Positions 25,201 through 60,799 of a stretch of DNA of 64,000 nt are shown here, piece after piece (the stretch's first letter is position 1; each line of letters opens with the position of its first letter). The notes beneath the pieces are model-generated. The model was not told the origin of the DNA. It saw only the letters and a program-made list of their open reading frames with translations, and ran no database searches. The stretch comes from Paludibacter sp. Lineage in GTDB: Bacteria; Bacteroidota; Bacteroidia; Bacteroidales; Paludibacteraceae. The translations under genes and the position numbers were made by a program. The stretch covers positions 62,001 through 126,000 of the forward strand of contig JAQVAV010000011.1 in assembly GCA_028690665.1 (NCBI GenBank), given 5' to 3'.

Positions 25201-26073
25201 GCCATGGGCGGGACACAAATTCCTCTGAGTGAAATTGCTGACATTACTTATGCCCGGGGAGCCCAAATGATTCGCAGCGAAGATACTTTTTTAGTCGGAT
25301 ATGTGATTTTTGACAAACAGGCCGATAAAGCCGAAGTCGATGTAGTAAACGCCGCCGACAATTTTCTGAAAAAGAAAATTAATTCGGGCGAATTAAAACT
25401 TCCCAACGGAGTCAGTTACAAATTTGCAGGCAACTTTGAACAGGAACAGCGTGCCACCAAACGGTTATCCATTGTGATTCCGGTTAGTTTGATACTGATT
25501 TTACTGCTTTTGTATTTTCAGTTTAAAACGGTTACGGCATCGTTAATCCATTTTTCGGGTGTATTTGTAGCTTTCGCCGGAGGGTTTATTATGCTTTGGC
25601 TGTACGGACAGGACTGGTTTCTGAATTTTTCGATAGCCGGCATCAACCTCAGGGATTTGTTCCAAATGCATACGGTGAACCTGAGTGTAGCCGTTTGGGT
25701 CGGTTTTATCGCTTTGTTCGGTATTGCCACCAACGATGGCGTACTTATGGGAACATATATTCACCAGATATTTGAAAAACAACATCCTGCAACCGTACCG
25801 GATGTACGCAATGCCGTGTTGCTTGCCGGAAAGAAACGTGTTCGTCCGGCCATGATGACTACGGCTGTAGCGGTTATTGCACTGTTACCTGTGCTGACTT
25901 CGACCGGAAAAGGAGCTGATATTATGGTGCCTATGGCTATTCCTACATTCGGAGGAATGATTATCCAAATCATGACCATTTTTGTAGTCCCGGTGTTTCA
26001 GGCTATCTGGCGCGAAAATGCAGTACGAAAAGCGGAAAAGAAAAAACTTAAATATATGGAGGATAAAGGATGA
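22249..26073 (+). CDS. cusA: CusA/CzcA-family heavy-metal RND efflux pump
   Basis: 1,274 residues; the inner-membrane proton-driven pump of a three-part metal exporter. Classical features: N-terminal helix, periplasmic porter parts (AVDAIPDIGDNQQIVSTEW, MGRSPKDIQDQITYPL), the central helix group with the charged proton-relay segment GVMVDIGIVDVENILRH, and the second helix bundle with FIALFGIATNDGVLMGTY. Methionine-rich positions in the second porter half (LLMPTSMP, VMLSTGMRAPMGLKV, RYGMTVSDVQ) suit Cu(I)/Ag(I), which is why cusA rather than czcA is used. It is about 200 residues longer than E. coli CusA, with extra hydrophobic segments around residues 540-640 and an added segment around 760-860. 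Its stop overlaps the start of the next gene by 4 bases (ATGA). Confidence 0.93.
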   Translation: MFNRIVKYFLEHRLISYLFLIAVIVLGLVYSPFGRTGTILPHNPVAVDAIPDIGDNQQIVSTEWMGRSPKDIQDQITYPLTTALLGISGVKTIRSTSMFGMSFIYIIFKDNVEFYWSRSRILEKLNSLPAGTLPSEVQPTLGPDATALGQIFWYTLEARNPKTGKPAGSWNPQELRTIQDFYVKYGLSSADGVSEVASVGGFVKEYQVDIDPDAMKAYGVTVMDIMNAVRKSNLDAGAETIELNKVEYIIHGLGYVKNIDDLENSVVAVRKNVPVRIGDVAHVVFGPATRRGGLDKEGSEAVGGVVVARYSSNPLEVINNVKAKIKDIEAGLPQKKLADGSISKVTIVPFYDRTGLIKETIGTLESALTHEILISIIVIIVLVLNLRASVIVSGLLPIGVLITFILMKFFGVEANIVALSGIAIAIGVMVDIGIVDVENILRHLEIPENKGLRGKKLVSVIYLATTEVRDAVVTSIATTIVSFIPVFAMQSAEGKLFHPLAFTKTFALLAAFILGLVVLPTLVYTFFNIRIDTKKIRKYLNYILIASGIGVVAVWQIWPALALTAVGINNLLANRWNESRKEFPNYINIAVTVLVAIYYLTEEWLPLGPHNGFLINFMFVTGIVAFILVALMSMVHFYEPILRWALANKIKFLLLPVFTVLFGLLVWQGFDKVFGPVAKGFEKSGWKTPAKAFPGTGKEFMPSLNEGSFLLMPTSMPQTGIQQNLQYIETLDRRVSNIPEVELTVGKWGRVNSTLDPAPVQMFENTINYRPEYALDENGQRIRFKVNKQGAFVLKNGQTYLPGKDTFRVIPTDSLLPFSQGEYYRQWRPEIKNPDDIWNEIVKVTHLPGLTSSPKLQPIETRLVMLSTGMRAPMGLKVYGPDLETIEKAGMQLEKVLKEIPDIKSSSVFYDRSVGAPYLQIKLNREAMARYGMTVSDVQDVLQVTLGGMSLSTSVEGRERFPIRVRYARELRDNPEDIGRILIPAMGGTQIPLSEIADITYARGAQMIRSEDTFLVGYVIFDKQADKAEVDVVNAADNFLKKKINSGELKLPNGVSYKFAGNFEQEQRATKRLSIVIPVSLILILLLLYFQFKTVTASLIHFSGVFVAFAGGFIMLWLYGQDWFLNFSIAGINLRDLFQMHTVNLSVAVWVGFIALFGIATNDGVLMGTYIHQIFEKQHPATVPDVRNAVLLAGKKRVRPAMMTTAVAVIALLPVLTSTGKGADIMVPMAIPTFGGMIIQIMTIFVVPVFQAIWRENAVRKAEKKKLKYMEDKG

Positions 26074-27344
26074 AAAAGCGATTAATATATCTTCTGTTGA
26101 TTGTTCTTGCGGGCAGTGCGGTTTATGCTCAGGATTCGTTAAACGTTTACTTGCAAACCGCTGCCAAAAACAATCCCACGGTAATGCAGCGATACAATGA
26201 GTATCTGGCCGCTTTGGAAAAACTGCCGCAAGTCGGTTCATTGCCAGATCCTCAGTTGGAAGCCGGATTCTTTCTGAGTCCAATGGAAATTATAAGTGGT
26301 CGCCAGGTTGCCGATATTAAACTTATGCAAATGTTTCCATGGTTTGGCGTACTGAAAAATGCCAAAGATGAAATGAATCTGATGGCTAAAGCAAAATTTG
26401 AAGTTTTCAGGGATGCACAATTGCAAATGTTTTATGAAGTGCAAAAAGCCTGGTTCGAGCTTTATCGCATTAGCAAAGAAAAAGAGTTGACTGCGGAAAA
26501 CATGGACTTACTCTCAACCATTGAAAAGCTGACATTGACAAAATTCGAAGCAGGAAACACAACTGTCAACATGGGAAGTATGAAAAACAGCAACGGAAGT
26601 TTGAGTGATGTTTATCTGATAAAAATTGAAAAAGCCAATCTGGAAAACAGTCTGAAAACATTGGACGATGAAAAAGAAGTAGCTGTAGCACGTTTCAATA
26701 GTCTTCTGAACCGGCCGTTACAAACTTCGGTCTCGTTGCCCGATACGCTTTTGGATACGCCATTGGATTTAAACTATCTGTCCGTAAACGACAGTTTGTT
26801 CAGCAACAATCCAATGCTGGACATGATTACTTACGAACAACAATCGCTTTCGGCCCGCGAACGTAAACAAAAACAGCAGGGGTTGCCGATGGTCGGCATC
26901 GGATTGAGTTATTCCGTGATTGAACCGAGTAGCATGTCGACTTCGTCCATGAATGGTCAGGATATGATTATGCCCATGGTATCCATTTCGTTGCCATTAT
27001 ACCGAAAAAAGTATAATGCCATGCAACGGGAAACAAAACTGCTCAGGGAAGCATCGTCAAATAATTATACCGCAGCCGTTAACGAACTTCAAACGCGCTA
27101 CCTAGAAGCTTTACAGCAATATTACGATGCTCAGCGACGTATAAAATTATACGCAAATCAAAGTCAGATGGAAGAAAAGTCTCTGAAAATTTACTTGCAA
27201 AGTTTTGCTTCGGGTACAAAAAATCTCACGGATATTCTGGCTATACAGCGTCGGCTTTTAGATTATGAGCAAAAACAAGTCAACGCCGTAGTTGATTTCA
27301 ACAAAGCGAAAGCTTTAGTAATCCGCCTGGCGGTTTATGAATAA
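26070..27344 (+). CDS. cusC: TolC-family outer-membrane efflux protein (CusC-like)
   Basis: 424 residues with a signal peptide (ends near VYAQ) and the long amphipathic helices of outer-membrane efflux channels (two repeats, about 30-230 and 235-420). The sequence PDPQLEAGFF is typical of metal-efflux TolC homologues. It would form the outer-membrane duct of the Cus-type complex together with the pump before it (4-base overlap) and the adaptor after it (19-base gap). No lipobox is visible, unlike enterobacterial CusC. A CzcC-like role with other metals cannot be excluded. Confidence 0.9.
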   Translation: MKKRLIYLLLIVLAGSAVYAQDSLNVYLQTAAKNNPTVMQRYNEYLAALEKLPQVGSLPDPQLEAGFFLSPMEIISGRQVADIKLMQMFPWFGVLKNAKDEMNLMAKAKFEVFRDAQLQMFYEVQKAWFELYRISKEKELTAENMDLLSTIEKLTLTKFEAGNTTVNMGSMKNSNGSLSDVYLIKIEKANLENSLKTLDDEKEVAVARFNSLLNRPLQTSVSLPDTLLDTPLDLNYLSVNDSLFSNNPMLDMITYEQQSLSARERKQKQQGLPMVGIGLSYSVIEPSSMSTSSMNGQDMIMPMVSISLPLYRKKYNAMQRETKLLREASSNNYTAAVNELQTRYLEALQQYYDAQRRIKLYANQSQMEEKSLKIYLQSFASGTKNLTDILAIQRRLLDYEQKQVNAVVDFNKAKALVIRLAVYE

Positions 27345-27363
27345 TCATTAAAATACAATTGTT

Positions 27364-28599
27364 ATGAAAAATATTTTTTCAAATAAATACTTACGATCCG
27401 GTCTGTTCGTAGCGGGCGGATTGTTTCTGGGTTGGTTGCTTTTCCATACACCGAAAGTGGAAAAAACGGAAAAATCTGTAGTCGAAGAACAGCACACACA
27501 TGAAATTTGGACTTGTTCCATGGATCCGCAAATTCGTCAGGATAAACCCGGAAAATGCCCGATTTGTGGCATGGATCTGATTCCATTGAAACCGGCAGAA
27601 ATGACGATGGATTCGGATGCTATCCAACTTTCGGACGAAGCGATGCAATTGGCCAACGTAGAAACTTCTGTTGTAACCCGCGAAAATCCTGAAAAACAAA
27701 TTCGGCTTTACGGAAAAGTGCAGGCCGATGAACGACTTTTACAAAATCAGGTCACACAATTTGCCGGCAGGATTGATAAACTGCTTGTCAACTTCACCGG
27801 TGAGTCTGTAAAAAAAGGACAACTGCTGGCCGTTATTTATTCCCCGGAACTAATAACAACTCAACAGGAATTTATCGAAGCAGCCAAGGTAAAAGACTCG
27901 CAACCGGAAATTTACAAAGCAGCGCGGCAAAAACTGCGTCAATGGCTACTCACTGATCAGCAAATCGCACAGATTGAAAAAAGTGGACAAACAAAATCCG
28001 GAGTTGAAATTTATTCAAATACTTCTGGAGTTATTACAAAACAAGATGTAAAAACCGGAGATTACGTATCGCGGGGAGCTCTGTTATACGAAGTTGCCGA
28101 CTTGTCAAAAGTTTGGATTCTGTTTGATGCTTATGAAGATGATTTAGCTTTTTTGAAAATAGGAGATGTCATTCATTTCACGCTAAAAACATTCCCCGGA
28201 AAAACCTTTTCGGCAAATATAAAATTCATTGATCCGGTAGTTGATGCTGAAAAACGCATCACTCATGTGCGTGTGGAGATTCCAAATCCACAAGGGACAT
28301 TAAAGCCTGAAATGTTTGCAACCGGTGTTGTTAAAGCTAAGTTGAACAGTCTGAAAGATGCTCTGGTAATTCCCCGTTCCGCAGTTTTATGGACGGGAAA
28401 ACGATCAGTGATCTACGTAAAAGAACCCGGAGAAATGGGCACTTTTAAAATGCGACAAATTGAACTTGGTCCTGCGCTGGGGAACAGCTACGTTGTTCTT
28501 GACGGACTGGAAGAAGGAGAAGAAATTGTTACCAACGGCACATTCAATATAGATGCAGCTGCACAACTTGAAGGAAAACCAAATATGATGTCGGAATAA
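27364..28599 (+). CDS. cusB: Efflux RND periplasmic adaptor with heavy-metal-binding domain (CusB-like)
   Basis: 411 residues. A membrane-spanning or signal segment (about 12-28) is followed by the short heavy-metal-binding domain with IWTCSMDPQIRQDKPGKCPICGMDLIPL features (Cys and Met ligands; about residues 48-78). Then come the membrane-fusion-protein hairpin and lipoyl/barrel parts (RIDKLLVNFTGESVKKGQLLAVIYSPEL, TSGVITKQDVKTGDYV). It links the pump and outer-membrane channel and is thought to hand metal to the pump. It is the last gene of the operon and ends at a terminator. Confidence 0.92.
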   Translation: MKNIFSNKYLRSGLFVAGGLFLGWLLFHTPKVEKTEKSVVEEQHTHEIWTCSMDPQIRQDKPGKCPICGMDLIPLKPAEMTMDSDAIQLSDEAMQLANVETSVVTRENPEKQIRLYGKVQADERLLQNQVTQFAGRIDKLLVNFTGESVKKGQLLAVIYSPELITTQQEFIEAAKVKDSQPEIYKAARQKLRQWLLTDQQIAQIEKSGQTKSGVEIYSNTSGVITKQDVKTGDYVSRGALLYEVADLSKVWILFDAYEDDLAFLKIGDVIHFTLKTFPGKTFSANIKFIDPVVDAEKRITHVRVEIPNPQGTLKPEMFATGVVKAKLNSLKDALVIPRSAVLWTGKRSVIYVKEPGEMGTFKMRQIELGPALGNSYVVLDGLEEGEEIVTNGTFNIDAAAQLEGKPNMMSE

Positions 28600-50497: not shown

Positions 50498-51160
50498 CTA
50501 TAGTTCTCCCGATTTTATCAGATCATATAGCTCCTGTGTATTCTGAACAAATATTTTAGCTCCAAGAGCCTCTAATTCATTGCGCGGACGGAATCCCCAC
50601 AACACGCCAACAAACGAAACATCTGCATTGTGAGCGGTCATAACATCTACTCCCGAATCTCCCACATATAAAACGTTTGCTTTTGGAGTTTTTGTCTTTG
50701 CCAGAATTTCTTCAACAATTGAGGGATCTGGCTTTGTCGGGAAATTCTCTCGCTGACCTAAAACGGCTGCAAATTCAATGTCCGGGAAAAAATACTTTGC
50801 TAATTTAGACGTTCCTGCATGGAATTTATTCGATGCAATGGCTATTTTATAACCTTCCTGCTGTATTTTAACAAGGAGTTCTACAATACCCGGATAAGGT
50901 TTTGTATAAACCTCCGTATTTTCGCTATAATGCTTTAAAAAAGTTCTTTTTACGACTGAAATTGTTTCCTGTGTTCTGCTATTCCCGGGCAAGGCACGTT
51001 CAATCAATTTGGCAATTCCATTGCCTACAAAAAAATTATATGCTTCTACAGGATGCATTGGAAAGTCATGCTGTCTGAGAGCAAAATTTGTACTGTTTGC
51101 AAGATCCTCAATGGTGTTTAAAAGCGTTCCATCAAGATCGAATATAACCAGTTTAATCAT
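50498..51160 (-). CDS. HAD-family phosphatase, phosphoglycolate-phosphatase-like
   Basis: 220 residues, the usual length for Gph-type HAD hydrolases. Motif I is VIFDLDGTLLNT with the nucleophile Asp, motif II AIASNKF, motif III lysine in FPTKPDP and motif IV YVGDSGVDVMTA. A helical cap follows motif I. It probably dephosphorylates phosphoglycolate or a sugar phosphate; HAD substrates cannot be told by sequence, so no gene symbol is given. It is divergent from the DUF134 gene. The stretch 49974-50497 upstream of galK and beyond this gene's stop is AT-rich and shows no gene or terminator. Confidence 0.88.
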   Translation of the reverse strand: MIKLVIFDLDGTLLNTIEDLANSTNFALRQHDFPMHPVEAYNFFVGNGIAKLIERALPGNSRTQETISVVKRTFLKHYSENTEVYTKPYPGIVELLVKIQQEGYKIAIASNKFHAGTSKLAKYFFPDIEFAAVLGQRENFPTKPDPSIVEEILAKTKTPKANVLYVGDSGVDVMTAHNADVSFVGVLWGFRPRNELEALGAKIFVQNTQELYDLIKSGEL

Positions 51161-51185
51161 TCTAATACCAATATTTATTTTTTGA

Positions 51186-51193
51186 CAAAAGTA
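51186..51193 (-). promoter_or_regulatory. Predicted -7 box for the HAD phosphatase gene
   Basis: The minus strand reads TACTTTTG, an exact TAnnTTTG match, 26 bases before the ATG at 51160. It is back to back with the promoter of the DUF134 gene. Confidence 0.5.
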
Positions 51194-51292
51194 GTATTAA
51201 TTACACGCGGAGCAAGTATTGTTTTAATTATTCATAAATAAAAACTATGCAATAATATATTACAATTATGAACATAAGTTCAAAACTATTTG

Positions 51293-51300
51293 TATCTTTG
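51293..51300 (+). promoter_or_regulatory. Predicted -7 box for the DUF134-led gene cluster
   Basis: TATCTTTG matches TAnnTTTG exactly, 30 bases before the DUF134 start. It is the best candidate for the promoter of the long redox cluster that follows. Confidence 0.55.
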
Positions 51301-51329
51301 CAACCAAATAAAGTAAGATTAATGTCGTT

Positions 51330-51746
51330 ATGCCACGTCCGCAACAAAACAGAAGAATATCGTCGCCGCCTTTAATGCAGGGTTTTAAACCCTTTGGAAT
51401 TCCACGCAAAGAGCTTGATTCCGTCATGCTCCACTTTGATGAATACGAAGCTATTCGCTTGTTGGATTACGAAGGTCTTATGCAGGAGCAGGCTGCTGAA
51501 AAAATGAATGTTTCCCGGCCAACCCTTACCCGCATTTACGAAAGTGCCCGTAAAACTTTGGCAAAGGCTTTTGTGGAAGGAAAAATGATTGTGATTGAAG
51601 GAGGAAATGTAGATTTCGGAAAACAATGGTATCGTTGCCGTAAGTGTTATAAACTTGTAGCCGGGGTTGAGAATCATAAACCCTGTAAAAATTGTACAAG
51701 TTATGGTACAGATGAACTTTTTATGATTAATTCCGAAAGTAAATGA
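51330..51746 (+). CDS. DUF134-family DNA-binding protein
   Basis: 138 residues. It begins with the family's MPRPQQNRRI and PPLMQGFKPFGIP, followed by DEYEAIRLLDYEGLMQEQAAEKMNVSRPTLTRIYESAR, a sigma-70 region 4-like helix-turn-helix (about residues 45-85). The C-terminal part has two CxxC pairs (Cys 103/106 and 119/122), a likely zinc ribbon. DUF134 proteins are commonly encoded next to NifX/ORP-like and MinD-type genes in anaerobes and are thought to regulate them. It is the first gene of this cluster, and its stop overlaps the next start (ATGA), so it may regulate the operon it heads, perhaps in response to redox state or metal. Confidence 0.9.
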   Translation: MPRPQQNRRISSPPLMQGFKPFGIPRKELDSVMLHFDEYEAIRLLDYEGLMQEQAAEKMNVSRPTLTRIYESARKTLAKAFVEGKMIVIEGGNVDFGKQWYRCRKCYKLVAGVENHKPCKNCTSYGTDELFMINSESK

Positions 51747-52576
51747 GAGTTGTGGTTTTGTCCGACAATCGGACAAGAAATATAAATTTTGAGACAGAGC
51801 ATGGTCTCTCGGTATATGTAGAACATAATGGCGTAAAATGGTTGCTGGATACCGGAAAATCGGATGTTTTTATTCGAAATGCAGAAAAGCTGAACATTGA
51901 TTTATCCGAGGTTGATTTTGTTTTTTTATCGCACGGACATATTGATCACACCGGCGGTTTAATGTCATTTTTTCAAATAAATCAAAAAGCGCAGGCCTTT
52001 GTTTCGGTCAAAGTAGCTTATGATCAGTATTTTTCAAGCCGGAAAGGGATGAGGGAGATTAGTTCACATATTGATTTTGAAAAATATCAAGATCGTATTT
52101 TGCAATTAAAGAATGGGGTATTTCTTTCAGGCGGAGTGAAAATTTTTAGTGTGGAAACTGAAAAATATGACAGGCCTCTTGCTAACCGGACATTGTTGAC
52201 AGATCAGGGACTCGGACTTGAGCGTGATGATTTTAGTCATGAACTTGTAATAAGTTTTGGAACGAACAATCAATTTGTATTTACAGGTTGCGGGCATAAA
52301 GGCTTACTTAATATTCTGAGTTATTTAGAACAAATAAATCAGGCAAAACCGAAAGTGGTTTTAGGTGGATTTCATTTATTGGATTCGGTGGCCGGAGTTC
52401 AATATGAATCAGAAGAGGATATATTGCAAATTTCAAAAATTCTTAATGTTCAATATCCGGAAACGAGATTTGTTACAGGCCATTGTACCGGAGATCATGT
52501 TTATGAATTAATGAAAGAAAAAGGACACGTTCAAATAGAGCAGTTTTATGTTGGATATGATTTGTCAATTGATTGA
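51743..52576 (+). CDS. Metallo-beta-lactamase-fold hydrolase
   Basis: 277 residues. The metal-binding motif is LSHGHIDHTGG (HxHxDH), with further ligands in FTGCGHKGL and FVTGHCTGDH; this is the DHPS/7,8-dihydropterin-6-methyl-4-(beta-D-ribofuranosyl)-aminobenzene-phosphate-synthase-like subgroup found in anaerobes. No signal peptide, so cytoplasmic. It overlaps the DUF134 gene by 4 bases. Substrate unknown; the setting in a redox/metal cluster suggests it may handle a thioester, nitric oxide or oxygen-related substrate, but that is only context. Confidence 0.88.
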   Translation: MRVVVLSDNRTRNINFETEHGLSVYVEHNGVKWLLDTGKSDVFIRNAEKLNIDLSEVDFVFLSHGHIDHTGGLMSFFQINQKAQAFVSVKVAYDQYFSSRKGMREISSHIDFEKYQDRILQLKNGVFLSGGVKIFSVETEKYDRPLANRTLLTDQGLGLERDDFSHELVISFGTNNQFVFTGCGHKGLLNILSYLEQINQAKPKVVLGGFHLLDSVAGVQYESEEDILQISKILNVQYPETRFVTGHCTGDHVYELMKEKGHVQIEQFYVGYDLSID

Positions 52577-52744
52577 AAAAGAAGAGTATAGTATTGCAAT
52601 ATGTGACCCGAACGATTTTTATAATACCAACTTAATAAAAGAAAGGAGTTAATTATGGGATGTGATACAGGTATAAAACCGATAAAAACGGTTCATTTAA
52701 ATGAAAACACGAGTAATAATCAACAATTAAAGGAGGAGAAAAAA

Positions 52745-53359
52745 ATGAGTTCAACAATGGTTAGGCAGGAGATGCCGAAATTCACAATCGATGCTTATGA
52801 TGCAAAGAGTGGACATTTTAAGACTGTTTCAAGTGAAGATTATAAAGGAAAATGGACGGTAGTTTGTTTTTATCCGGCAGATTTTACATTTGTTTGTCCA
52901 ACGGAAATTGCTGCCATGAATGCAAAGTATGATGATTTTCAAAAACTGAATACTGAAATTCTTGCAGTATCTGTCGATTCTAAATTTTCTCACAAAAGAT
53001 TTGTAGAAACAGAACCTCTTCTAAAGGGATTAAAATTGACCATAGGAGCAGATGCTAATCAGGAAGTTAGCCGGGCTTTTGGAGTTCTGGAGGAAGAAGA
53101 AGGAGTTGCTCTGCGGGGTAGATTTTTATTTAATCCGGATGGAATTTGTGTTGCTCAGGAAGTTCAGGCCGATTCTGTTGGCAGAAACGTGAATGAATTT
53201 TTGAGACAGGTGGAAGCCTGGCAATATGCAACTAAGACTGGTGAGGTTTGCCCTGCCGGCTGGAGACCGGGAAAGAAAACGCTTCCTGTAAATACCGATG
53301 CAGAAAAAATGGCCGGTCATGTCGGGAATTATATTACAATTGAAGAAATTTTATCATAG
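52745..53359 (+). CDS. 2-Cys peroxiredoxin (AhpC/Prx1 type)
   Basis: 204 residues from the ATG at 52745, which follows an excellent Shine-Dalgarno AAAGGAGGAG. It reduces hydrogen peroxide and organic peroxides with a peroxidatic Cys 51 (FTFVCPTE) and a resolving Cys 169 (GEVCPAGW). The frame is also open, in phase, from an ATG at 52655 that has its own good site (AAAGGAG, 6 bases before), giving a 30-residue N-terminal extension MGCDTGIKPIKTVHLNENTS and more; the shorter start matches the normal family length. Peroxiredoxin within the cluster suggests protection of oxygen-sensitive Fe-S or metal-cluster proteins. Confidence 0.92.
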   Translation: MSSTMVRQEMPKFTIDAYDAKSGHFKTVSSEDYKGKWTVVCFYPADFTFVCPTEIAAMNAKYDDFQKLNTEILAVSVDSKFSHKRFVETEPLLKGLKLTIGADANQEVSRAFGVLEEEEGVALRGRFLFNPDGICVAQEVQADSVGRNVNEFLRQVEAWQYATKTGEVCPAGWRPGKKTLPVNTDAEKMAGHVGNYITIEEILS

Positions 53360-53377
53360 TTTTATAAATTAGTAAAT

Positions 53378-53683
53378 ATGAAAATAGCAATTGCATCAGA
53401 AGGAAATTCTATAAATGACAAAATGGATAGTCGTTTTGGCAGATGTGCTTTTTTTGCCATTTATGACACAGATACTAAAGACACCCGTTTCCTTCCAAAT
53501 CCGGGAAAAAACGCCTCGGGGGGAGCCGGACCGGCTACCGTTCGTTTTGTAGCACAACAGGGTGCACAGAAAATAGTGGCAACAGAGCTTGGAGGAAAAG
53601 CTTTAGATATGTTGAATAATCTCAATATTGAATTGATTTACGATAAAGACAAAACAATTTCAGAAATAATATCTAAATTTTAA
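53378..53683 (+). CDS. NifX/NifB-type dinitrogenase iron-molybdenum cofactor-domain protein (ORP-like)
   Basis: 101 residues, one cofactor-binding domain of the NifX/NafY/ORP superfamily: MKIAIASEGNSINDKMDSRFGRC at the start with the conserved arginine-glycine loop, and ASGGAGPATVRFVAQQGAQK followed by LGGKALDML. Members bind Fe-Mo cofactor precursors or, in the Desulfovibrio orange protein, a Mo-Cu-sulfur cluster. No nif genes are nearby, so a nitrogenase role is unlikely. It is the sixth part of a compact group: 18 bases after the peroxiredoxin and 5 bases before the first DUF5320-type gene. Confidence 0.9.
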   Translation: MKIAIASEGNSINDKMDSRFGRCAFFAIYDTDTKDTRFLPNPGKNASGGAGPATVRFVAQQGAQKIVATELGGKALDMLNNLNIELIYDKDKTISEIISKF

Positions 53684-53688
53684 TAATT

Positions 53689-53883
53689 ATGCCTCATTTA
53701 GATGGTACAGGACCTGAAGGTACAGGAGCATCTTCGGGGAGAAAATTAGGCCGTTGTAGTTCGGCCTCGAAAAAAAATCCGACAACATTAGGAGTCGGCA
53801 TGGGAAAAAGAAGAAAATCCGGAGACGGAGAAGTCAAAGGACAAGGAAAACGCCTTAAAAGTGGCGAAAATATAAATCAATAA
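53689..53883 (+). CDS. Small DUF5320-type protein 1
   Basis: 64 residues. The start MPHLDGTGPEGTGASSGRKLG matches the pattern of DUF5320 peptides (MPxxDGTGPxGxGxxTGRxxG). The rest is rich in Lys, Gly and Ser (GMGKRRKSGDGEVKG) and probably disordered, with one cysteine (RCSS). It is 14 bases before a second copy. Such peptides repeatedly occur with NifX/MinD/Mrp genes; function unknown. The preceding and following spacing marks it as a real gene in the operon. Confidence 0.8.
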   Translation: MPHLDGTGPEGTGASSGRKLGRCSSASKKNPTTLGVGMGKRRKSGDGEVKGQGKRLKSGENINQ

Positions 53884-53897
53884 AAAGGAGGTAAATT

Positions 53898-54131
53898 ATG
53901 CCAGGATTAAATCACAAAGGTCCGAATGGCGAAGGAGCCATGACCGGCCGAAAGATGGGAAAATGTACCAATTTCGGTGAAAAACTTAAAACTGATACCG
54001 AAACAGAAAACCAGAATGGCTTTGGTGGCGGTTATGGTTTCAGAAATCGCCGAGGAAATGGCGGTGGTGGTGGACGAGGTCGCCGCATGGGTATGGGAAG
54101 AAGAAACAGATTTGGCCAAAATTCCGATTAA
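53898..54131 (+). CDS. Small DUF5320-type protein 2
   Basis: 77 residues with the same opening plan (MPGLNHKGPNGEGAMTGRKMGKC) and then a glycine/arginine/asparagine-rich tail (NRRGNGGGGGRGRRMGMGRRN). A strong Shine-Dalgarno AAAAGGAGG lies 7 bases before the ATG. It ends the first part of the cluster: the terminator at 54158-54200 comes 27 bases later. The tail could bind nucleic acid or a partner protein, but nothing specific is recognisable. Confidence 0.8.
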   Translation: MPGLNHKGPNGEGAMTGRKMGKCTNFGEKLKTDTETENQNGFGGGYGFRNRRGNGGGGGRGRRMGMGRRNRFGQNSD

Positions 54132-54157
54132 ATAATACCTATGATGTATTCTGATTT

Positions 54158-54200
54158 CAATTTGTGGTTTATAATCATGTAAACCACAGATTGTTTTTTT
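54158..54200 (+). terminator. Terminator inside the redox gene cluster
   Basis: Stem CAATTTGTGGTTTA (54158-54171) with TAAACCACAGATTG (54180-54193), 13 of 14 paired, followed by a T7 run. It divides the cluster into DUF134-to-DUF5320 and DUF89-to-C_GCAxxG parts and would lower expression of the second part. Confidence 0.8.
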
Positions 54201-54218
54201 GTAACCAATTAATTAATT

Positions 54219-55100
54219 ATGGCGGTTAGAGTTGAAGAATTAAAAAAATATACGGTCGACAGGCGATGCATCGATTGCCAATTTAGATCGTTTGAACGGT
54301 TGATGAATAAATTTAGAATATCGTCTGATGACCGTCAAAAATTTTCCAGATTTTATAATGATACGATGTCCCGTTCCGCACATCTTCAAACACCTCAGAT
54401 TCATCGATTGCTGAATGATGAATTTTGTCGTTTGGCTGGTAGTTCTGATTTGTATGTCGAAGAAAAACATCAGAGCAATGCTACAGCTCTTCGAATTATA
54501 AATGAACTTCGTCCGGAGGTCGAACAATCCACCAATCTGTTTAATCTGGCTTTGAAGTTGTCAATTGCCGGGAATATTATGGATTATGGTGCATCCGGTG
54601 ATTTCGATATACATGCCACTATTCAGAAAGTGCTTACTACCAATTTTGCAATAGATCATTCAAAAGAACTTGAAAACAGGATGAAATTAGCAAAAAATAT
54701 TTTATATCTGGGAGATAACGCAGGCGAAATTGTTTTTGATAAGTTTTTTATTGAGACAATTCATCCTGAAAATCTGACTTTTGCAGTAAGAGGTTCTGCG
54801 GTTCTAAATGATGCAACTTTAGAGGACGCGAAAAATATCGGATTGAACAAAGTCGTCCATGTAATAACCAATGGTTATAATGCGCCTTCAACCATTCTAA
54901 GTGAGTCGAGTCCTGAATTTTTAAAATATTATCACGAGGCGGATTTGATTATTTCTAAAGGACAAGGAAATTTTGAAGGTCTTATGCACGAGTATGATCC
55001 ACGAATTTTTTTCTTGTTAATGGTAAAATGTGATGTGGTGTCAGAAGTTGTTGGTGTTGAAAAAGGAAGTTTTATTGTATATAATCAAGCTATTTCATAA
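54219..55100 (+). CDS. DUF89/ARMT1-family protein
   Basis: 293 residues. The N-terminal Cys pair (RRCIDCQFRSFERL), the metal-site segment ILYLGDNAGEIVFDKFFIE and the later SKGQGNFEGLM are hallmarks of the DUF89 family, which includes eukaryotic metal-dependent phosphatases proposed to clear damaged phosphometabolites. Cytoplasmic. It follows the cluster terminator by 18 bases and precedes the first MinD-like gene by 19. Why a DUF89 protein belongs to this cluster is unknown; removal of harmful phosphorylated by-products is one option (inference). Confidence 0.85.
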   Translation: MAVRVEELKKYTVDRRCIDCQFRSFERLMNKFRISSDDRQKFSRFYNDTMSRSAHLQTPQIHRLLNDEFCRLAGSSDLYVEEKHQSNATALRIINELRPEVEQSTNLFNLALKLSIAGNIMDYGASGDFDIHATIQKVLTTNFAIDHSKELENRMKLAKNILYLGDNAGEIVFDKFFIETIHPENLTFAVRGSAVLNDATLEDAKNIGLNKVVHVITNGYNAPSTILSESSPEFLKYYHEADLIISKGQGNFEGLMHEYDPRIFFLLMVKCDVVSEVVGVEKGSFIVYNQAIS

Positions 55101-55119
55101 ATTATAACGGAAGCAGAGA

Positions 55120-55995
55120 TTGAAAACAAAAATAAAAATAGCTATTGCAAGCGGTAAAGGCGGAACCGGAAAGACTTTTATTTCCACTAATCTGTTCCGG
55201 GTATTGCAGAAACAATCGATTGATGTAACCTTGGTTGATTGTGATGCGGAAGAGCCCAATGATTTACAATTTATTTCCGGTTCTTCGGTCGAAGCATTCA
55301 GCGTTACACAAAAAGTTCCTGTAATTGATAAAACGAAATGCACTTATTGTGGTAAGTGCTTCGAGTATTGTAATTACAATGCTATTTTTTATCTTCAGGA
55401 AAGAACATATATTGAAGTACTGGAAGATCAATGCCACGGTTGCGGAGCATGCTCAGTAGCTTGTAATTTTGCTGCTATCACAGAAAAAGAAAATGAACTT
55501 GGAACAGTGGAAACATTCCGGGTAAGCGAAAATGCAGAACTTATTGAGGCTCGGATGAAAATCGGCGTACATTCTCCGGTTTCAACGATAAAAGCGGCTA
55601 TAAAATCGGCAAAAAATTCTGTAGTTCTGTTTGATTCTCCTCCCGGAACATCCTGCCCGTTTATTCAAACAGTATCATTTGCCGATTATGTGGTATTGGT
55701 AACAGAACCAACTCCTTTTGGATTGAGTGATTTAAAACAATCTGTCGAAACGCTTAAAAGTATGAATAAATGTTGCGGTGTCATCGTGAACAGGTCAACT
55801 TTAGGTACAAACGAGGTTTATGAATATCTGAATCAGGAAAAAATTCCACTTTTAATGTCAGTGCCTTTTGATAAAAATATAGCGCTTCATTATTCAAAAG
55901 GAAATGTTTTGGCCGAAAAAGATATTGAATGGAGTATAAAATTTAATCAACTGTATAACACAATTCTTGAACGATATGGAGATAGCTGTAATTAG
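55120..55995 (+). CDS. MinD/ParA-type ATPase with inserted 4Fe-4S ferredoxin domain, copy 1
   Basis: 291 residues. P-loop with deviant Walker A at ASGKGGTGKT (about 10-19), an inserted ferredoxin module with eight cysteines (CTYCGKCFEYCNYN and CHGCGACSVACNFA; about 68-122), and the Walker B/switch segment SPPGTSCPFIQT. In both clusters the residue after the last cysteine is Asn rather than the usual Pro. Start is a TTG codon at 55120 (no ATG fits the N-terminus). In Desulfovibrio such proteins are partners of the orange protein. The gene overlaps its paralogue by 20 bases, so the two proteins are likely made together and may form a heterodimer. Confidence 0.92.
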   Translation: MKTKIKIAIASGKGGTGKTFISTNLFRVLQKQSIDVTLVDCDAEEPNDLQFISGSSVEAFSVTQKVPVIDKTKCTYCGKCFEYCNYNAIFYLQERTYIEVLEDQCHGCGACSVACNFAAITEKENELGTVETFRVSENAELIEARMKIGVHSPVSTIKAAIKSAKNSVVLFDSPPGTSCPFIQTVSFADYVVLVTEPTPFGLSDLKQSVETLKSMNKCCGVIVNRSTLGTNEVYEYLNQEKIPLLMSVPFDKNIALHYSKGNVLAEKDIEWSIKFNQLYNTILERYGDSCN

Positions 55996-56842
55996 TGGCA
56001 AAGGAGGAACCGGTAAAAGTAGTATTACAGCAGCTTTTGCAAGCTTGGATAAAAATATTGTTCTTGCCGATTGTGATGTTGATGCTGCTAATTTGTATCT
56101 GATTTTTCAGCCTGAGAATGAACGGGAAGATGCTTTTATATCCGGTGATAAGGCTTTAATTGATAAAGATTTGTGTACCAATTGTGGTAGTTGTGTCAAT
56201 TATTGCCGCTTTGATGCGATACATGAAATCAATGGTGAAATCAGCATTTATGAAACTGCGTGCGATGGTTGTAAATTGTGTTCAAGAATTTGTCCGGCCG
56301 GAGCGATTACCATGGTTCAGGAAGACAGAAGTCGATTATATGCAGGAAATTTCCGGAACGGAAAAATGGTTTACGGACGGCTTGCTCCGGGAGAAGAAAA
56401 TTCCGGAAGATTAGTCGATGTTGTGAGGGATACCGCTAAGGACATGTTGAAAGAAACAGGATTCCGGGATATTATTATTGATGGCCCTCCGGGAATTGGT
56501 TGTCCGGTGATCTCCACTATCACAGGAGTCGACCGGGTGGTGATTGTAACAGAGCCGACTCTTTCGGGTTTGCATGATTTAGAACGTACTGTTGAAGTTG
56601 TCAGTCGTTTTCGGATAGTTCCTTATATAATTATCAATAAAGCCGATCTGAACAATGAAATGTCCGATGAAATTGAAAACTTTTGCCAGAAACGTAATGT
56701 GAAAGTTGTTGCACGAATTCCTTTCGAACAATTATTTGTAGAAGCTATGATTGATTGTCAAAGCATTGTGGAAAAAGCACCGAAATCAGAAGTTACAAAA
56801 TTGCTGTCCAAAGCATTTTTAGAAATAAAATCAAATAATTAA
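55976..56842 (+). CDS. MinD/ParA-type ATPase with inserted 4Fe-4S ferredoxin domain, copy 2
   Basis: 288 residues from the ATG at 55976 (MEIAVISGKGGTGKSS); a TTG three codons upstream at 55967 is another possible start. Deviant Walker A as above, a ferredoxin insert with CTNCGSCVNYCRFDAIH and CDGCKLCSRICPAGAI (the second cluster with the normal CP), and GPPGIGCPVIST. The fold is the same as in copy 1 with clear but distant similarity. It lies 8 bases before the Mrp gene. Together the two could couple ATP hydrolysis to electron delivery or cluster transfer. Confidence 0.92.
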   Translation: MEIAVISGKGGTGKSSITAAFASLDKNIVLADCDVDAANLYLIFQPENEREDAFISGDKALIDKDLCTNCGSCVNYCRFDAIHEINGEISIYETACDGCKLCSRICPAGAITMVQEDRSRLYAGNFRNGKMVYGRLAPGEENSGRLVDVVRDTAKDMLKETGFRDIIIDGPPGIGCPVISTITGVDRVVIVTEPTLSGLHDLERTVEVVSRFRIVPYIIINKADLNNEMSDEIENFCQKRNVKVVARIPFEQLFVEAMIDCQSIVEKAPKSEVTKLLSKAFLEIKSNN

Positions 56843-56850
56843 TTATAATT

Positions 56851-57669
56851 ATGCCAGTCAAAAAAAATGTTTTAGAAAATATTAAAAAAATTATTCTTGT
56901 ATCTTCGGGAAAAGGAGGCGTGGGAAAATCTACGGTCGCCGCAGGTTTGGCTCTGTCCCTTGCCCGCGAAGGTTATTCTGTCGGACTTTTGGATGCTGAT
57001 ATTTTTGGCCCTTCTGTTCCTACTTTGTTTCAATTAGGAGATGCCGGAAGGCCTTCCGGAACTGATAAAAACGGAAAAAAAATGATGTTGCCGTTTGAGA
57101 AATTCGGTCTGAAAATTATGAGTATCGGTTTTTTTGTCGAACCATCTCAAGCTGTTATCTGGCGGGGTCCTATGGTCACCAATGTGCTACGCCAATTACT
57201 CACCGAAACCGATTGGGGAAAACTTGACTTTCTAATTGTTGATACACCTCCGGGAACCGGCGATGTCCACATTACTCTTATGCAGGAATTTTATGTTTCA
57301 GGGGCCATTGTGGTAACTACTCCGCAGAAAGTTGCTCTTGATGATGTTCACAGGGCTATTGGCATGTTGACAGACGATGCAATCGGAGCTCCGGTGTTGG
57401 GAATTGTCGAAAATATGGCTTGGTTTACTCCGACGAAACATCCGGATGAAAAATATTTTCTTTTCGGAAAGGGTGGCGGTGAATTGCTCTCAAAAAAATA
57501 CAATGTTCCTCTTTTGGCACAAATTCCCATGAACGAAGGTATTAGTGAAAATTGTGATAGCGGACGGGTTGCCGGCATGTTCGACGATAAAAATATAGAG
57601 CAGGCTTTTGACCAGCTTGCCTCAAAAGTTATGACTCAGAAACAATCATTCAAATACATAAAAAATTAA
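56851..57669 (+). CDS. Mrp/NBP35-family P-loop ATPase
   Basis: 272 residues. Walker A SSGKGGVGKSTVAAGLAL, the Mrp signature WRGPMVTNVLRQLLTETDWG, FLIVDTPPGTGDVHITLMQ and ENMAWFTPTKHPDEKYFLFGKGGGELL. These ATPases carry or transfer Fe-S clusters. This one lacks the N-terminal DUF59 domain seen in the longer housekeeping Mrp of Bacteroidetes, and has no CxxC pair where other Mrp proteins bind a bridging cluster (it reads TPTK). It resembles the Mrp partner of ORP clusters, supporting a dedicated rather than housekeeping role. Confidence 0.92.
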   Translation: MPVKKNVLENIKKIILVSSGKGGVGKSTVAAGLALSLAREGYSVGLLDADIFGPSVPTLFQLGDAGRPSGTDKNGKKMMLPFEKFGLKIMSIGFFVEPSQAVIWRGPMVTNVLRQLLTETDWGKLDFLIVDTPPGTGDVHITLMQEFYVSGAIVVTTPQKVALDDVHRAIGMLTDDAIGAPVLGIVENMAWFTPTKHPDEKYFLFGKGGGELLSKKYNVPLLAQIPMNEGISENCDSGRVAGMFDDKNIEQAFDQLASKVMTQKQSFKYIKN

Positions 57670-57729
57670 ATGGAGCTTTATTGAGGTCGCTTTAAATTTA
57701 TACATAGAAAATTCAACAGTTACAGATTT

Positions 57730-59421
57730 ATGAGTAAAAAAATTATCATCATTGGAGGATCTGCTGCCGGTCCTAAAGCTGCCTCCAGAGCCCGTCGTCT
57801 TGACGAAAATGCAGAGATTACAATTATCCAGAAAGCATCTGATTTATCGATGGCTTCTTGTGGTTACCCTTATTATGTAGGTGGTTTCTTTGATGACCGC
57901 AGTCAGTTACTTTGCTCTCCTGCAGGAGTGGTTCGTGATTCAAATTTTTTCTGGAATGCAAAAAAAATTCTGACTTTTGTCAATACGGAAGTTACCAAAA
58001 TAGACAAAGAGAAAAAAATTGTAGAATACCGGAATTTGCTTACCGGTGAAAACAGTTCTGCAGCTTACGATAAACTGATTATTGCTACGGGAGCTATTCC
58101 AAGGAAACCACCTGTTGCCGGGGTAACCCTCGATGGTGTTACGACCTTGCAATCTTTATCCGATGCTGATTATTTACGTAAAGTCCGGGATAATGGGAAG
58201 ATAAAAAAAGCTGTTGTAATTGGAGGAGGACTTATCGGGATTGAAACCTGCGAAGCTCTCAATCTTGCCGGGATTGAAATTACGCTTGTAGAGATGCTTC
58301 CTCAGTTGTTGACATTTCTGGATAAACACATGGCCCGTTTGGTTGAAAAATATGTACAAAGCAAGGCCAATGTAATTTTACAAAACGGAGTGTCCGAATT
58401 TATCGGTGAGAATGGGAAATTAAAAGCGGTAAAACTTCAGGATGGAACAGAAATTGCCTGCGATCTGGCTGTTATTGCTACCGGAGTTATTCCAAACAAT
58501 CAATTGGCCAAGGCAGCCGGGTTGGAAGTTGGCTCTTTAGGAGGCATTACCGTTGATGCTTATATGCAAACATCCGATAAGGATATTTATGCAGTTGGCG
58601 ATTGTATTGAAACGCCCAATTTGATTACCGGGAAAAAGGTACATGCTCCTTTTGGCGATTTAGCAAATTTACAGGGACGTATTGTCGGAGAAAACGTAAT
58701 ATCAGGCAATGTAAGTCAATTCCCCGGAACTATTCAAACCGGTATTTGTAAGGTATTTGAATACGGAGTAGGATCAACGGGACTTTCTGAACAAAATGCG
58801 GTTCGTAATGGTTTTGACAACATTGAAACTGTGGTAAATGCAAGTATGGACAAGCCCGGATTCATGCACGGAAAACTATTGATAACAAAACTGATCGTAG
58901 ATAAATCTTCGGAAAGAATTCTTGGAGCACAAGTGCTTGGCCCGGGCGATGTCAGCAAACAGGTTGCGATCTGGGCAATGGCTATTAAAGGCAAGCTTAC
59001 GGTAGAAGATATGGTAAATGCAGATTTACCTTATGCTCCTCCATATTCATTGGCAATAGATCATAGTATTGCGACAGCGCATGTTATGCAAAATAAGCTG
59101 AAAGGTCTTTTTACCGGAATTTCAGCAGAGCAATTAAAAGAAAAATTAAAGACAAAAGAACCGATGTTTTTACTCGATGTCCGTAATCCCAATGAATACG
59201 AACAAATGCGGCTCGGCATAGATGAAAAACTTATACCGCTTGGACAGTTACGCAAACGTATTGAGGAATTTCCAGAAGATAAAAATGCAGAAATTGTTAC
59301 CTGGTGTAAAATATCGTTACGGGGATACGAAGCTGCACGAATTCTTCAGGCTAATGGATATACGAATGTAAAAGTCCTTGAAGGAGGCATCATGGCTTGG
59401 CCATGGAATATAGAAAAATAA
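57730..59421 (+). CDS. CoA-disulfide reductase-type FAD/NAD(P)H oxidoreductase fused to rhodanese
   Basis: 563 residues. N-terminal FAD-binding GxGxxG-like IIIIGGSAAGPKAASRARR and the redox Cys 44 in SMASCGYPYYVGG, typical of CoA-disulfide reductase/NADH oxidase/polysulfide reductase proteins; the NAD(P)H motif VVIGGGLIGIETCEAL; and dimerisation domain to about residue 445. The C-terminal 110 residues are a rhodanese domain (FLLDVRNPNEYEQMRLG) with active-site Cys 526 in TWCKISLRGYEAA. Such fusions reduce CoA persulfides, polysulfides or CoA disulfide. In this cluster it could supply reduced sulfur or deal with sulfur stress. The 60-base gap before it may hold a separate start of transcription, but no -7 box was seen. 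Confidence 0.92.
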   Translation: MSKKIIIIGGSAAGPKAASRARRLDENAEITIIQKASDLSMASCGYPYYVGGFFDDRSQLLCSPAGVVRDSNFFWNAKKILTFVNTEVTKIDKEKKIVEYRNLLTGENSSAAYDKLIIATGAIPRKPPVAGVTLDGVTTLQSLSDADYLRKVRDNGKIKKAVVIGGGLIGIETCEALNLAGIEITLVEMLPQLLTFLDKHMARLVEKYVQSKANVILQNGVSEFIGENGKLKAVKLQDGTEIACDLAVIATGVIPNNQLAKAAGLEVGSLGGITVDAYMQTSDKDIYAVGDCIETPNLITGKKVHAPFGDLANLQGRIVGENVISGNVSQFPGTIQTGICKVFEYGVGSTGLSEQNAVRNGFDNIETVVNASMDKPGFMHGKLLITKLIVDKSSERILGAQVLGPGDVSKQVAIWAMAIKGKLTVEDMVNADLPYAPPYSLAIDHSIATAHVMQNKLKGLFTGISAEQLKEKLKTKEPMFLLDVRNPNEYEQMRLGIDEKLIPLGQLRKRIEEFPEDKNAEIVTWCKISLRGYEAARILQANGYTNVKVLEGGIMAWPWNIEK

Positions 59422-59457
59422 ATTTTTAGAATAAACATTTTATAAATAATAAGAAAA

Positions 59458-59841
59458 ATGAAAATTGCAGTACCAACAAAAGAAGGAAACCGCATCGACG
59501 ATCATTTCGGACATTGCGAATTTTACACTATTTACACCATTTCTGATGATGATAAAAAAGTAGTAGACAAACAAAAACTCGAATCTCCACAAGGCTGCGG
59601 ATGTAAAACAGATATCGCTTATGACCTTGAGAAAATGGATGTCCGTGTCATGCTTGCCGGTGGAATCGGACAAGGAGCTATCAACAAACTTGCTGCGCAA
59701 AACATTAAAGTTATACGTAACTGCCGGGGAGATGTTGATGTCCTGATCAATGAGTACCTTGCGGGTAACATCGTTGACGGAGGTCAGAGTTGTGCGGCTC
59801 ACGCAAATCATGAGGCTGAAGGGCATGTTTGTAATCATTAA
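59458..59841 (+). CDS. NifX/NifB-type cofactor-domain protein with His/Cys tail
   Basis: 127 residues: the same cofactor-binding domain as the 53378 gene (MKIAVPTKEGNRIDDHFGHCEFYTIY, QGCGCKTDIAYDLE, GGIGQGAINKLAAQNIKVIRNC) plus a C-terminal tail rich in possible metal ligands (CAAHANHEAEGHVCNH). Placing one NifX-type gene at each end of the MinD/Mrp genes suggests two different cluster-binding clients. It is 36 bases after the CoA-disulfide reductase gene. Confidence 0.9.
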   Translation: MKIAVPTKEGNRIDDHFGHCEFYTIYTISDDDKKVVDKQKLESPQGCGCKTDIAYDLEKMDVRVMLAGGIGQGAINKLAAQNIKVIRNCRGDVDVLINEYLAGNIVDGGQSCAAHANHEAEGHVCNH

Positions 59842-59872
59842 AATCAATTGCGTTTTTTGACAAGAAAAAATA

Positions 59873-60289
59873 ATGATTACATACGATTATCATTTTCGGG
59901 TAGCATATCCGGACACCGATCAAATGGGAACTATGCACCATGCTAATTACACGAAGTATTACGAACTGGCTCGCTGGGAATTACTTCGAAGCATTGGTGT
60001 TTCGTACAAATCGGTTGAAGATGCTGGGGTAATGTGTCCGGTTACAAAGATGAATTTCAAATTCATCAAGCCGACGAGATATGATGAACTTTTGACGGTA
60101 AAAACGACTTTACGGGAAATAAAAGGCGTAAGAATGGTGTTCGACTATAAACTATACAACGAACAAAATGAACTGATAAACAGGGCAGAAACAGAACTCG
60201 TTTTTGTTGGCCGTGACAACTGGAAATTATGTGAACCTCCCGCATTCCTTATGAGTAAAATTGAAAAAGCCATGAAGGATGATGAGTGA
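59873..60289 (+). CDS. Hot-dog-fold acyl-CoA thioesterase (YbgC/FadM-like)
   Basis: 138 residues. The start YRVAYPDTDQMGTMHHANYTKYYELARWELLR is characteristic of 4-hydroxybenzoyl-CoA thioesterase-like proteins, with the active-site Asp in DTDQMG. It hydrolyses acyl-CoA in the cytoplasm. The start codon lies 31 bases after the NifX-like gene and its stop overlaps the next gene by 8-11 bases, so co-transcription is likely. A link to the cluster's sulfur/CoA chemistry is possible through the CoA-disulfide reductase next door (inference). Confidence 0.9.
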   Translation: MITYDYHFRVAYPDTDQMGTMHHANYTKYYELARWELLRSIGVSYKSVEDAGVMCPVTKMNFKFIKPTRYDELLTVKTTLREIKGVRMVFDYKLYNEQNELINRAETELVFVGRDNWKLCEPPAFLMSKIEKAMKDDE

Positions 60290-60746
60290 AACAGAACTTC
60301 GTACTCAAAAGGCCGTTAGTCTGTTTGAACAGGGGTATAATTGTGCTCAGTCCGTTTTTATGGCTTACGCCGATATTTTTGGTGTGGAAGGAGAACTTGC
60401 GGCAAAACTCCCGACTTCTTTTGGAGGCGGGATGGGGCGTTTACGCGAAGTATGTGGCGCCTTGAGTGGTGCATTTATGTTATTAGGGCTGAAATATCCT
60501 TTTACAGATGTACATAATAAAGCACTGAAAAACGAAAATTATAAAAAAGTCCAAGCTGTAGCCGGAGCATTTAAACAGGAAATGGGTTCCTATATTTGTG
60601 CAGATTTACTTCATATCAGGAGGGAAGCACAGCATTATGTTTCCGCTGACAGAACTAAAGCTTATTATGCAGAAAGGCCATGCTCAAAATGTGTACGTGT
60701 AGCTGCTGAAATTGTTGGAAAAGAAATTTTTTCTGTTTCTGAGTAA
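60279..60746 (+). CDS. C_GCAxxG_C_C family redox-type protein
   Basis: 155 residues. The named cysteine pattern is complete: FEQGYNCAQSVFMAY, FGGGMGRLREVCGALSGAFMLLG, then CADLLH and PCSKCVRVAAEIV. Proteins of this family are frequent in anaerobes and are proposed to bind a metal or take part in redox reactions; no function is proven. An ATG one codon later (60282) is an alternative start. It is the last gene of the cluster and overlaps the thioesterase gene; a terminator follows after 17 bases. Confidence 0.9.
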   Translation: MMSETELRTQKAVSLFEQGYNCAQSVFMAYADIFGVEGELAAKLPTSFGGGMGRLREVCGALSGAFMLLGLKYPFTDVHNKALKNENYKKVQAVAGAFKQEMGSYICADLLHIRREAQHYVSADRTKAYYAERPCSKCVRVAAEIVGKEIFSVSE

Positions 60747-60763
60747 TAGATGATTTCTGAATG

Positions 60764-60799
60764 AAAGGATTATCCGATTTTTTGGGTAATCCTTTTTTT
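60764..60799 (+). terminator. Terminator at the end of the redox gene cluster
   Basis: AAAGGATTA (60764-60772) pairs perfectly with TAATCCTTT (60787-60795), followed by a T-run. Confidence 0.75.

Follow-up and report, generated by a model that had tools for sequence, protein, structure and literature searches.

Fourteen co-directional genes form the locus

We analyzed a 64,000-nucleotide stretch of the 4.05 Mb genome of Paludibacter sp. (the window; positions 62001 to 126000 of contig G000:C13), in which a candidate operon at 51330–60746 encodes two NifX-like proteins, here called NifXa and NifXb, together with a pair of ferredoxin-MinD ATPases, an Mrp ATPase, and a DUF134 protein. The original prediction had described 14 same-strand genes of named families, and an open reading frame (ORF) scan of the window found all 14 on the + strand; Pfam searches, supplemented for some proteins by NCBIfam scoring, recovered the families that had been named (Table 1). 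Three gene pairs overlap, and the remaining intergenic gaps are short. The size of the gap upstream of the peroxiredoxin gene depends on the start codon chosen, as its ORF opens at 52655 and was scanned from 52742. The second DUF5320 peptide scores 27.4 bits against a Pfam cut-off of 27.

A terminator-like stem-loop with a T-run follows the last gene, one of two terminator-like sites in about 900 bases, compared with a mean of 0.6 (standard deviation, 0.9) in shuffled sequences. Because of this stem, the GNAT gene at 60879 probably lies outside the operon.

Table 1. Genes and predicted regulatory features of the candidate operon (window positions)
Feature	Position	Strand	Evidence
Palindrome TGAACATAAGTTCA, proposed DUF134 operator	51269..51282	.	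Pattern and comparative evidence
DUF134 protein, proposed autoregulator	51330..51746	+	Pfam; weak sigma70-r4-like helix-turn-helix match; C-terminal Cys residues
MBL-fold metallo-hydrolase	51743..52576	+	Pfam Lactamase_B; PDB 2p4z, 3h3e
AhpC-type peroxiredoxin	52742..53359	+	Pfam AhpC-TSA; ORF opens 52655
NifXa, Nitro_FeMo-Co domain, tailless, one Cys	53378..53683	+	Pfam; PDB 1eo1
DUF5320 peptide a, isoelectric point (pI) 10.45	53689..53883	+	Pfam
DUF5320 peptide b, Gly/Arg-rich tail, pI 11.2	53898..54131	+	Pfam
DUF89/ARMT1-like, damage-control phosphatase family	54219..55100	+	Pfam
MinD1, P-loop ATPase, two 4Fe-4S motifs, TTG start	55120..55995	+	Pfam
MinD2, P-loop ATPase, two 4Fe-4S motifs, TTG start	55967..56842	+	Pfam
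Mrp/NUBPL ATPase without CxxC	56851..57669	+	Pfam, alignment
CoA-disulfide reductase (CoADR)-rhodanese fusion	57730..59421	+	Pfam Pyr_redox_2 and Rhodanese; PDB search
NifXb, Cys/His-rich Nitro_FeMo-Co protein, HFGHC...GCGC	59458..59841	+	Pfam; predicted model
4HBT thioesterase	59873..60289	+	Pfam
C_GCAxxG_C_C putative redox protein	60279..60746	+	Pfam
Terminator-like stem-loop with T-run	60763..60796	+	Stem scan

The genes recur together in related genomes

We profile-searched 60 genomes, including that of the window, and found MinD1 in 18 of them. We also compared 98 related loci, namely 18 near loci from 17 other genomes and 80 loci on named contigs (the best 80 of at least 287 relatives); 38 of the loci are from Bacteroidota and 60 from elsewhere, the latter including four records without a phylum. 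The loci were located via MinD, and the counts for MinD2 (37/38 Bacteroidota, 59/60 other) and MinD1 (36/38 and 56/60) are therefore not evidence of conservation. All locus counts are lower bounds, since many loci stop at contig ends. Iterated hidden Markov models of MinD1 and Mrp ran into each other, and counts were taken from clusters of neighbor proteins instead; the first DUF5320 model also drew in NifU-like scaffolds, and these sets were separated by a sequence motif.

Conservation of the neighbors was the check that the original prediction had set for itself, and they are indeed kept. The NifXa type is present in 81/98 loci (30/38 Bacteroidota, 51/60 other) and DUF134 in 40/98 (22/38 and 18/60). 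Given in the same order, NifXb/Di-Nase-type proteins occur in 30/38 and 36/60 loci, DUF5320 in 25/38 and 22/60, Mrp in 17/38 and 21/60, DUF89 in 16/38 and 8/60, MBL in 12/38 and 9/60, and C_GCAxxG in 4/38 and 0/60. The additions that had been singled out are recurrent in Bacteroidota: CoADR (11/38; 5/60 other), the 4HBT thioesterase (10/38; 0/60), and peroxiredoxin (9/38; 1/60). As a control, we searched the 98 loci and the window for flanking genes, which gave two matches to galK (one in L053) and one each to the HAD and GNAT genes, these last being the window's own. Because the flanking genes hardly recur while the non-MinD cluster genes do, the cluster is not a chance grouping. Additional members in relatives include ZIP, radical SAM, ferritin-like, CGGC, DsrE, methyltransferase, and PF03601 genes. 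Two further labels, DUF59 for a 98-amino-acid neighbor and VOC for a 124-amino-acid neighbor in relatives, were dropped for want of Pfam support at E 1e-5.

The 60-genome survey, which is not centered on MinD, finds a NifX-domain gene at most 10 kb away from 34/38 DUF134 genes, at most 2 kb away from 30/33 DUF5320 genes, and at most 10 kb away from 6/11 CoADR genes; the fraction of a genome lying within 10 kb of NifX averages at most about 0.6%. MinD1 and DUF5320 co-occur (13/18 vs. 5/42 genomes; P = 8e-6), with P values here and below being only indicative because the genomes are related. The genes thus recur as one system.

DUF134 probably regulates its own operon through an upstream palindrome

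The palindrome TGAACATAAGTTCA sits 47 bases ahead of the DUF134 start codon, and downstream of it lies a promoter-like stretch, TATTTGTATCTTTGC, a putative instance of the Bacteroidetes promoter form. When start codons were estimated throughout, a strict TGAACATAAGTTCA-like palindrome was found within 150 bp upstream of 28 of 71 DUF134 genes and upstream of 15 of 1461 other ORFs; 200 random draws yielded a mean of 0.59 palindrome-bearing upstream regions and a maximum of 4, compared with the 28 observed. The exact sequence TGAACATAWGTTCA was found 21 times, in 20 of the 60 genomes (the backward pattern, used as a control, returned 3 forward hits); 18 of these sites adjoin module genes, with 17 next to a module DUF134, NifXa, DUF5320, or peroxiredoxin gene. 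Other exact sites lie ahead of a DUF5320-ZIP pair (DUF5320 confirmed by Pfam), between CoADR-like and peroxiredoxin-like genes, and within an Rhs-like ORF, the other genes at these sites being named by reading. In the genome of the window, TGAACN4GTTCA occurs five times, and ATAA is found solely in the operon copy.

We then compared recognition helices with half-sites in 35 DUF134 proteins, 28 with a strict palindrome and seven with weak or other sites. Among the strict-palindrome rows, helix SRPTxT pairs with half-site TGAAC (22/22), SRxTFA with TGAGA (4/4), and SRATxG with TGAGC (2/2). The weak-site rows include an AGA-like site with Ala (L110) and four rows with Gly (L102, L123, L135, and L142). 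Because the half-site varies with the recognition helix, DUF134 is probably an autoregulator of the operon that acts via the palindrome. This would make DUF134 a hitherto unstudied regulator with a likely DNA target that can be read from related genomes. The titles found in our literature search, which were partly covered, indicated no DUF134 regulator, and neither a DUF134 operator nor a NifX-DUF5320 link was found in the literature searched; the name matches seen in PMC7970244 (DUF1345) and PMC10434189 (DUF1349) are not to DUF134.

A wider regulon was considered and rejected, as the relaxed pattern TGAACNWWNGTTCA yields mostly chance sites. Of 75 relaxed sites taken from the matches listed, 23 lie within 3 kb of DUF134, NifX, or DUF5320. 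We inspected 20 relaxed-site regions, one of which (G045:C29) was an exact site already found; 13 of the other 19 fall inside ORFs of at least 70 amino acids (a few of these are short and may not be true genes), and the remaining six are intergenic, without a clear theme.

NifXa and the DUF5320 peptides resemble a divided IssA

NifXa has MTH1175 as its best PDB match (1eo1; E = 1.1e-12), ahead of the orange protein (ORP) structure 2wfb (E = 1.5e-7), and in pairwise comparison it is closer to MTH1175 than to Desulfovibrio gigas ORP. MTH1175 falls, according to PMC5524996, in the clade of IssA, the thioferrate storage protein of Pyrococcus. That source gives the IssA tail a pI of 10.7, with 15 Gly and 14 aromatic residues per 70, and notes that some clade members lack a cationic Gly/aromatic tail. 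Like IssA, NifXa carries the IPR003731/Nitro_FeMo-Co domain, and the DUF5320 peptides of the window match the tail in charge and Gly content; the median pI is 11.2 for DUF5320 at Bacteroidota loci (28 sequences) and 5.8 in a comparison set of 188 other recurrent small neighbors (medians taken on an earlier phylum split that counted L099 outside Bacteroidota). The cationic tail of IssA is part of the same protein, whereas the window has tail-like chemistry on separate peptides, which are poor in aromatics, and adds ATPases.

Natural fusions link the two kinds of protein. Nitro_FeMo-Co and DUF5320 domains share one ORF in L070 (59.2 and 29.6 bits), in L119 (170.6 and 27.4 bits, with two NifX stretches), and in L104 (80.1 and 40.8 bits, plus ferredoxin motifs); a candidate in L083 has DUF5320 at 25.3 bits, below the cut-off of 27. 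Every Bacteroidota fusion is a single draft-genome case. By the features compared, the operon is not an IssA member but may partly work like one. Given their chemistry and the fusions, NifXa and the two cationic, Gly-rich DUF5320 peptides would hold anionic iron-sulfide species as the IssA domain and tail do.

The MinD, Mrp, and NifXb proteins parallel the ORP and MrpORP systems

The original prediction had called the locus ORP-like, a label that is not supported in the sense of a Mo-Cu system. As in the ORP/MrpORP systems of Desulfovibrio described in PMC6345978, two ferredoxin-MinD ATPases, Mrp, and Nitro_FeMo-Co proteins are clustered. The MinD pair is, as had been claimed, of the kind known from Desulfovibrio: MinD1 and MinD2, with two 4Fe-4S motifs each, are counterparts of Orp3 and Orp4, and the eight motif Cys residues of MinD1 are invariant in 12 sequences. 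Mrp matches positions 1–254 of MrpORP at 271.9 bits and NifXb, scored apart, matches positions 265–364 at 59 bits, both far under the NCBIfam equivalog cut-off of 450 bits.

NifXb and MrpORP have HFGHCE in common, along with a C-terminal Cys-x-His. Against the MrpORP Di-Nase motifs CXHFGHCE and CDH, NifXb reads DDHFGHCE and CNH (the first Cys is missing), and it has GCGCK in place of the proline motif of MrpORP-type Di-Nase relatives. In 28 sequences selected at ≥100 bits to the window protein, H16, H19, C20, C47, C49, C89, C112, H115, H123, and C125 are conserved at ≥80%, and the HFGHC...GCGC motif occurs in 26 ORFs. A model predicted from an alignment of 10 sequences adopts a NifX fold (mean pLDDT [predicted local distance difference test] of 80, with residues 111–127 at low confidence); its best PDB matches are TM1816 (1o13) and PH0822 (2yx6), with ORP 2wfb and MTH1175 ranking lower.

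Several features separate the operon from these systems. In MrpORP, the P-loop and Di-Nase domains form one protein, whereas Mrp and NifXb are encoded separately here; a fused relative is the Mrp-Nitro_FeMo-Co (NifXb) ORF at L152:3553-4758 (285 and 60.8 bits), which is followed by a NifXa-like ORF and is the single fusion showing the Mrp-NifXb pairing. The MrpORP P-loop domain carries a CxxC, which the window Mrp lacks. In a 40-row alignment with one row incomplete, CxxC was absent from 18/18 readable Bacteroidota rows (the window, the housekeeping Mrp of the same genome, and 16 cluster Mrps) and present in 18/21 non-Bacteroidota rows. The lack of CxxC that this housekeeping Mrp (L031; G000:C8:72798-73544) also shows may be a general trait of Bacteroidota. 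The ORP complex is encoded by divergent operons under sigma54, whereas the window has one co-directional unit with DUF134; a search of the + strand at 51100–51340 that allowed up to two mismatches gave no sigma54 site, although sigma54-type regulator genes (named by reading) are neighbors in 4/38 Bacteroidota loci. The window also adds DUF5320, CoADR, peroxiredoxin, 4HBT, and C_GCAxxG genes. Riboswitch control was rejected, as no Rfam match was obtained up to E 0.5.

By the features compared, the operon is thus not an ORP/MrpORP member but may partly work like them, with the MinD pair, Mrp, and NifXb acting as a split MrpORP/ORP machine that would load or pass clusters with ATP. A true orange-protein complex, in which NifXa would carry a Mo-Cu-sulfide cluster matured by MinD and Mrp, possibly with a role in cell division as in Desulfovibrio, is in our view very unlikely. 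The MinD pair, the match of NifXa to 2wfb, and the subthreshold MrpORP matches speak for it, but Mrp lacks CxxC, the stretch searched gave no sigma54 site, NifXa is nearer MTH1175, Rfam gave no match, and iron genes adjoin in other phyla.

These iron genes were found near the MinD pair outside Bacteroidota, as NifU_N (20/60 loci), FeoB (6/60), FUR (4/60), and Fe-dependent repressor (4/60) groups, with one representative per group checked by Pfam. Because of these neighbors, iron is the likeliest metal and is favored over Mo-Cu. Among neighbor groups in at least four loci, those recognized as metal-linked were iron, ZIP, and heavy-metal-chelation groups; no separate search for Mo genes was made.

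Redox enzymes and partial gene sets

The CoADR-rhodanese protein has NADH oxidase NoxA-3 as its best PDB match (6pfz; E = 1.2e-139) and resembles the CoA-disulfide/persulfide reductase-rhodanese fusions 3icr, 3nta, 3ntd, and 8a56 over nearly its full length (E = 8e-87 to 7e-99); it differs from these known fusions in lying inside a NifX/DUF134 operon. Since it matches the CoA-persulfide reductase 8a56 and the CoADR 3icr, we infer a function in sulfur supply, in which it would give reduced sulfur from persulfide. Judging from their families, peroxiredoxin, C_GCAxxG, and DUF89 proteins may protect the system or clean up after it. The C_GCAxxG protein gave one unexpected PDB match, of residues 108–153 to a covalently connected cytochrome c555 trimer (9l08; E = 1.9e-6), in which no individual stretch passed by itself.

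Smaller units occur in genomes without MinD1, some of which are drafts (85 to 100% complete). One has the order CoADR-GCAxxG-ferritin-like-4HBT-NifXb-MBL-DUF134 (G019), another DUF134-MBL-DUF5320-NifXb-4HBT-GCAxxG (G023), and four more (G004, G006, G008, and G018) carry partly similar sets with PF03601-like genes. The window merges this MinD1-independent unit with a NifXa-DUF5320-DUF89-MinD-Mrp unit. Because genomes without MinD1 keep partial sets such as DUF134-MBL-NifXb-4HBT-GCAxxG, the earlier description of a complete system was overstated. DUF134 is itself fused to a Nitro_FeMo-Co (NifXb) domain in one ORF (L161; 84.1 and 78.1 bits).

Such units raise the possibility, which we rate as somewhat unlikely, that the operon serves against sulfide/persulfide and oxidant stress. 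The NifX proteins would then sense the state of the cluster on behalf of DUF134, and the real output would be the redox enzymes. This is consistent with the MinD1-less modules that carry DUF134, MBL, NifXb, 4HBT, GCAxxG, or CoADR, in some cases alongside PF03601-like or ferritin-like genes (Pfam check on relatives L056 and L050), with the DUF134-NifXb fusion, and with exact operator copies at CydA-like/rubrerythrin and CoADR-like/peroxiredoxin-like gene pairs (rubrerythrin confirmed, the rest by reading). However, these outermost operator copies are single cases, and, in loci chosen by MinD, NifX and DUF5320 recur in a broader range of phyla than the redox enzymes do. The first of these copies (L187, near 1501; G045:C29:40074) lies between the divergent CydA-like and rubrerythrin genes.

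Proposed function

We favor the reading that the 14-gene operon, under DUF134, would be an iron-sulfur scaffold or store and repair module of an anaerobe. To this reading as a whole, that is, a single transcription unit, DUF134 control, and an iron-sulfur module together, we give an even chance. DUF134, the first gene product, would bind the promoter palindrome and control the unit, as computational evidence from several sides suggests. If this is right, two families without known function, DUF134 and DUF5320, and the poorly placed NifX and MinD genes would be tied to one unit, giving iron-sulfur storage and repair in anaerobes a concrete Bacteroidota gene set with a predicted operator.

A number of observations weigh against this reading. 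Upstream regions of 43/71 DUF134 genes lack the strict palindrome; among the weak-site rows, L097 (TGAAC-like with His) breaks the helix rule and L105 (TGCAC with Thr) is uninformative. The link between half-site and helix amounts to two changes on the tree of the 28 proteins and is therefore suggestive, not proof. DUF5320 peptides at other loci are less basic (median pI 9.4, range 5.1 to 10.9; 26 sequences, on the same phylum split), and the median aromatic fraction of Bacteroidota DUF5320 is 0.04, compared with 14/70 in the IssA tail. An Mrp that lacks CxxC may hold no cluster, and the FeoB, Fur, and DtxR-type neighbors are all outside Bacteroidota. C_GCAxxG lies within 10 kb of NifX in 13/41 cases, leaving many copies outside the module, and across the 60 genomes MinD1 shows no association with C_GCAxxG (P = 1.0) and a weak one with CoADR (P = 0.07).

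A more specific proposal, which we consider unlikely, is that the system is a relative of thioferrate storage, split into separate proteins and driven by ATP, in anaerobes from Bacteroidota to archaea. In it, NifXa and DUF5320 would build up a store of iron sulfide, from which MinD, Mrp, and NifXb would draw clusters, and DUF134 would be a regulator that senses clusters through a signal relayed by NifXb.

The NifX domains might also suggest accessory cofactor genes for nitrogenase, with NifX acting on FeMo-co, and the genome does have, besides a NifB-length gene, a nifH that scores above the curated cut-off. We reject this link as extremely unlikely, as the genome profiles disfavor it: MinD1 does not track nifH (2/14 nifH+ genomes vs. 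16/46 scored as negative, among them G014, whose nifH is partial; P = 0.19), and 0/17 NifB-length genes are near DUF134, MinD1, or DUF5320. In the same genome, nifH and a NifB-length Nitro_FeMo-Co gene that lies about 8 kb from it (L063; G000:C11:329924-338942) likely form a nitrogenase cluster apart from the operon.

Other features of the window

Elsewhere in the window, positions 22249–28599 encode a resistance-nodulation-division efflux set consisting of an AcrB-family pump, an outer membrane efflux protein, and a CusB/HlyD-type fusion protein that includes a heavy-metal-binding domain. A 1345-amino-acid hybrid two-component protein (Reg_prop, Y_Y_Y, HisKA, response regulator, and HTH_18 domains) is encoded at 5819–9856, in a low-GC stretch.

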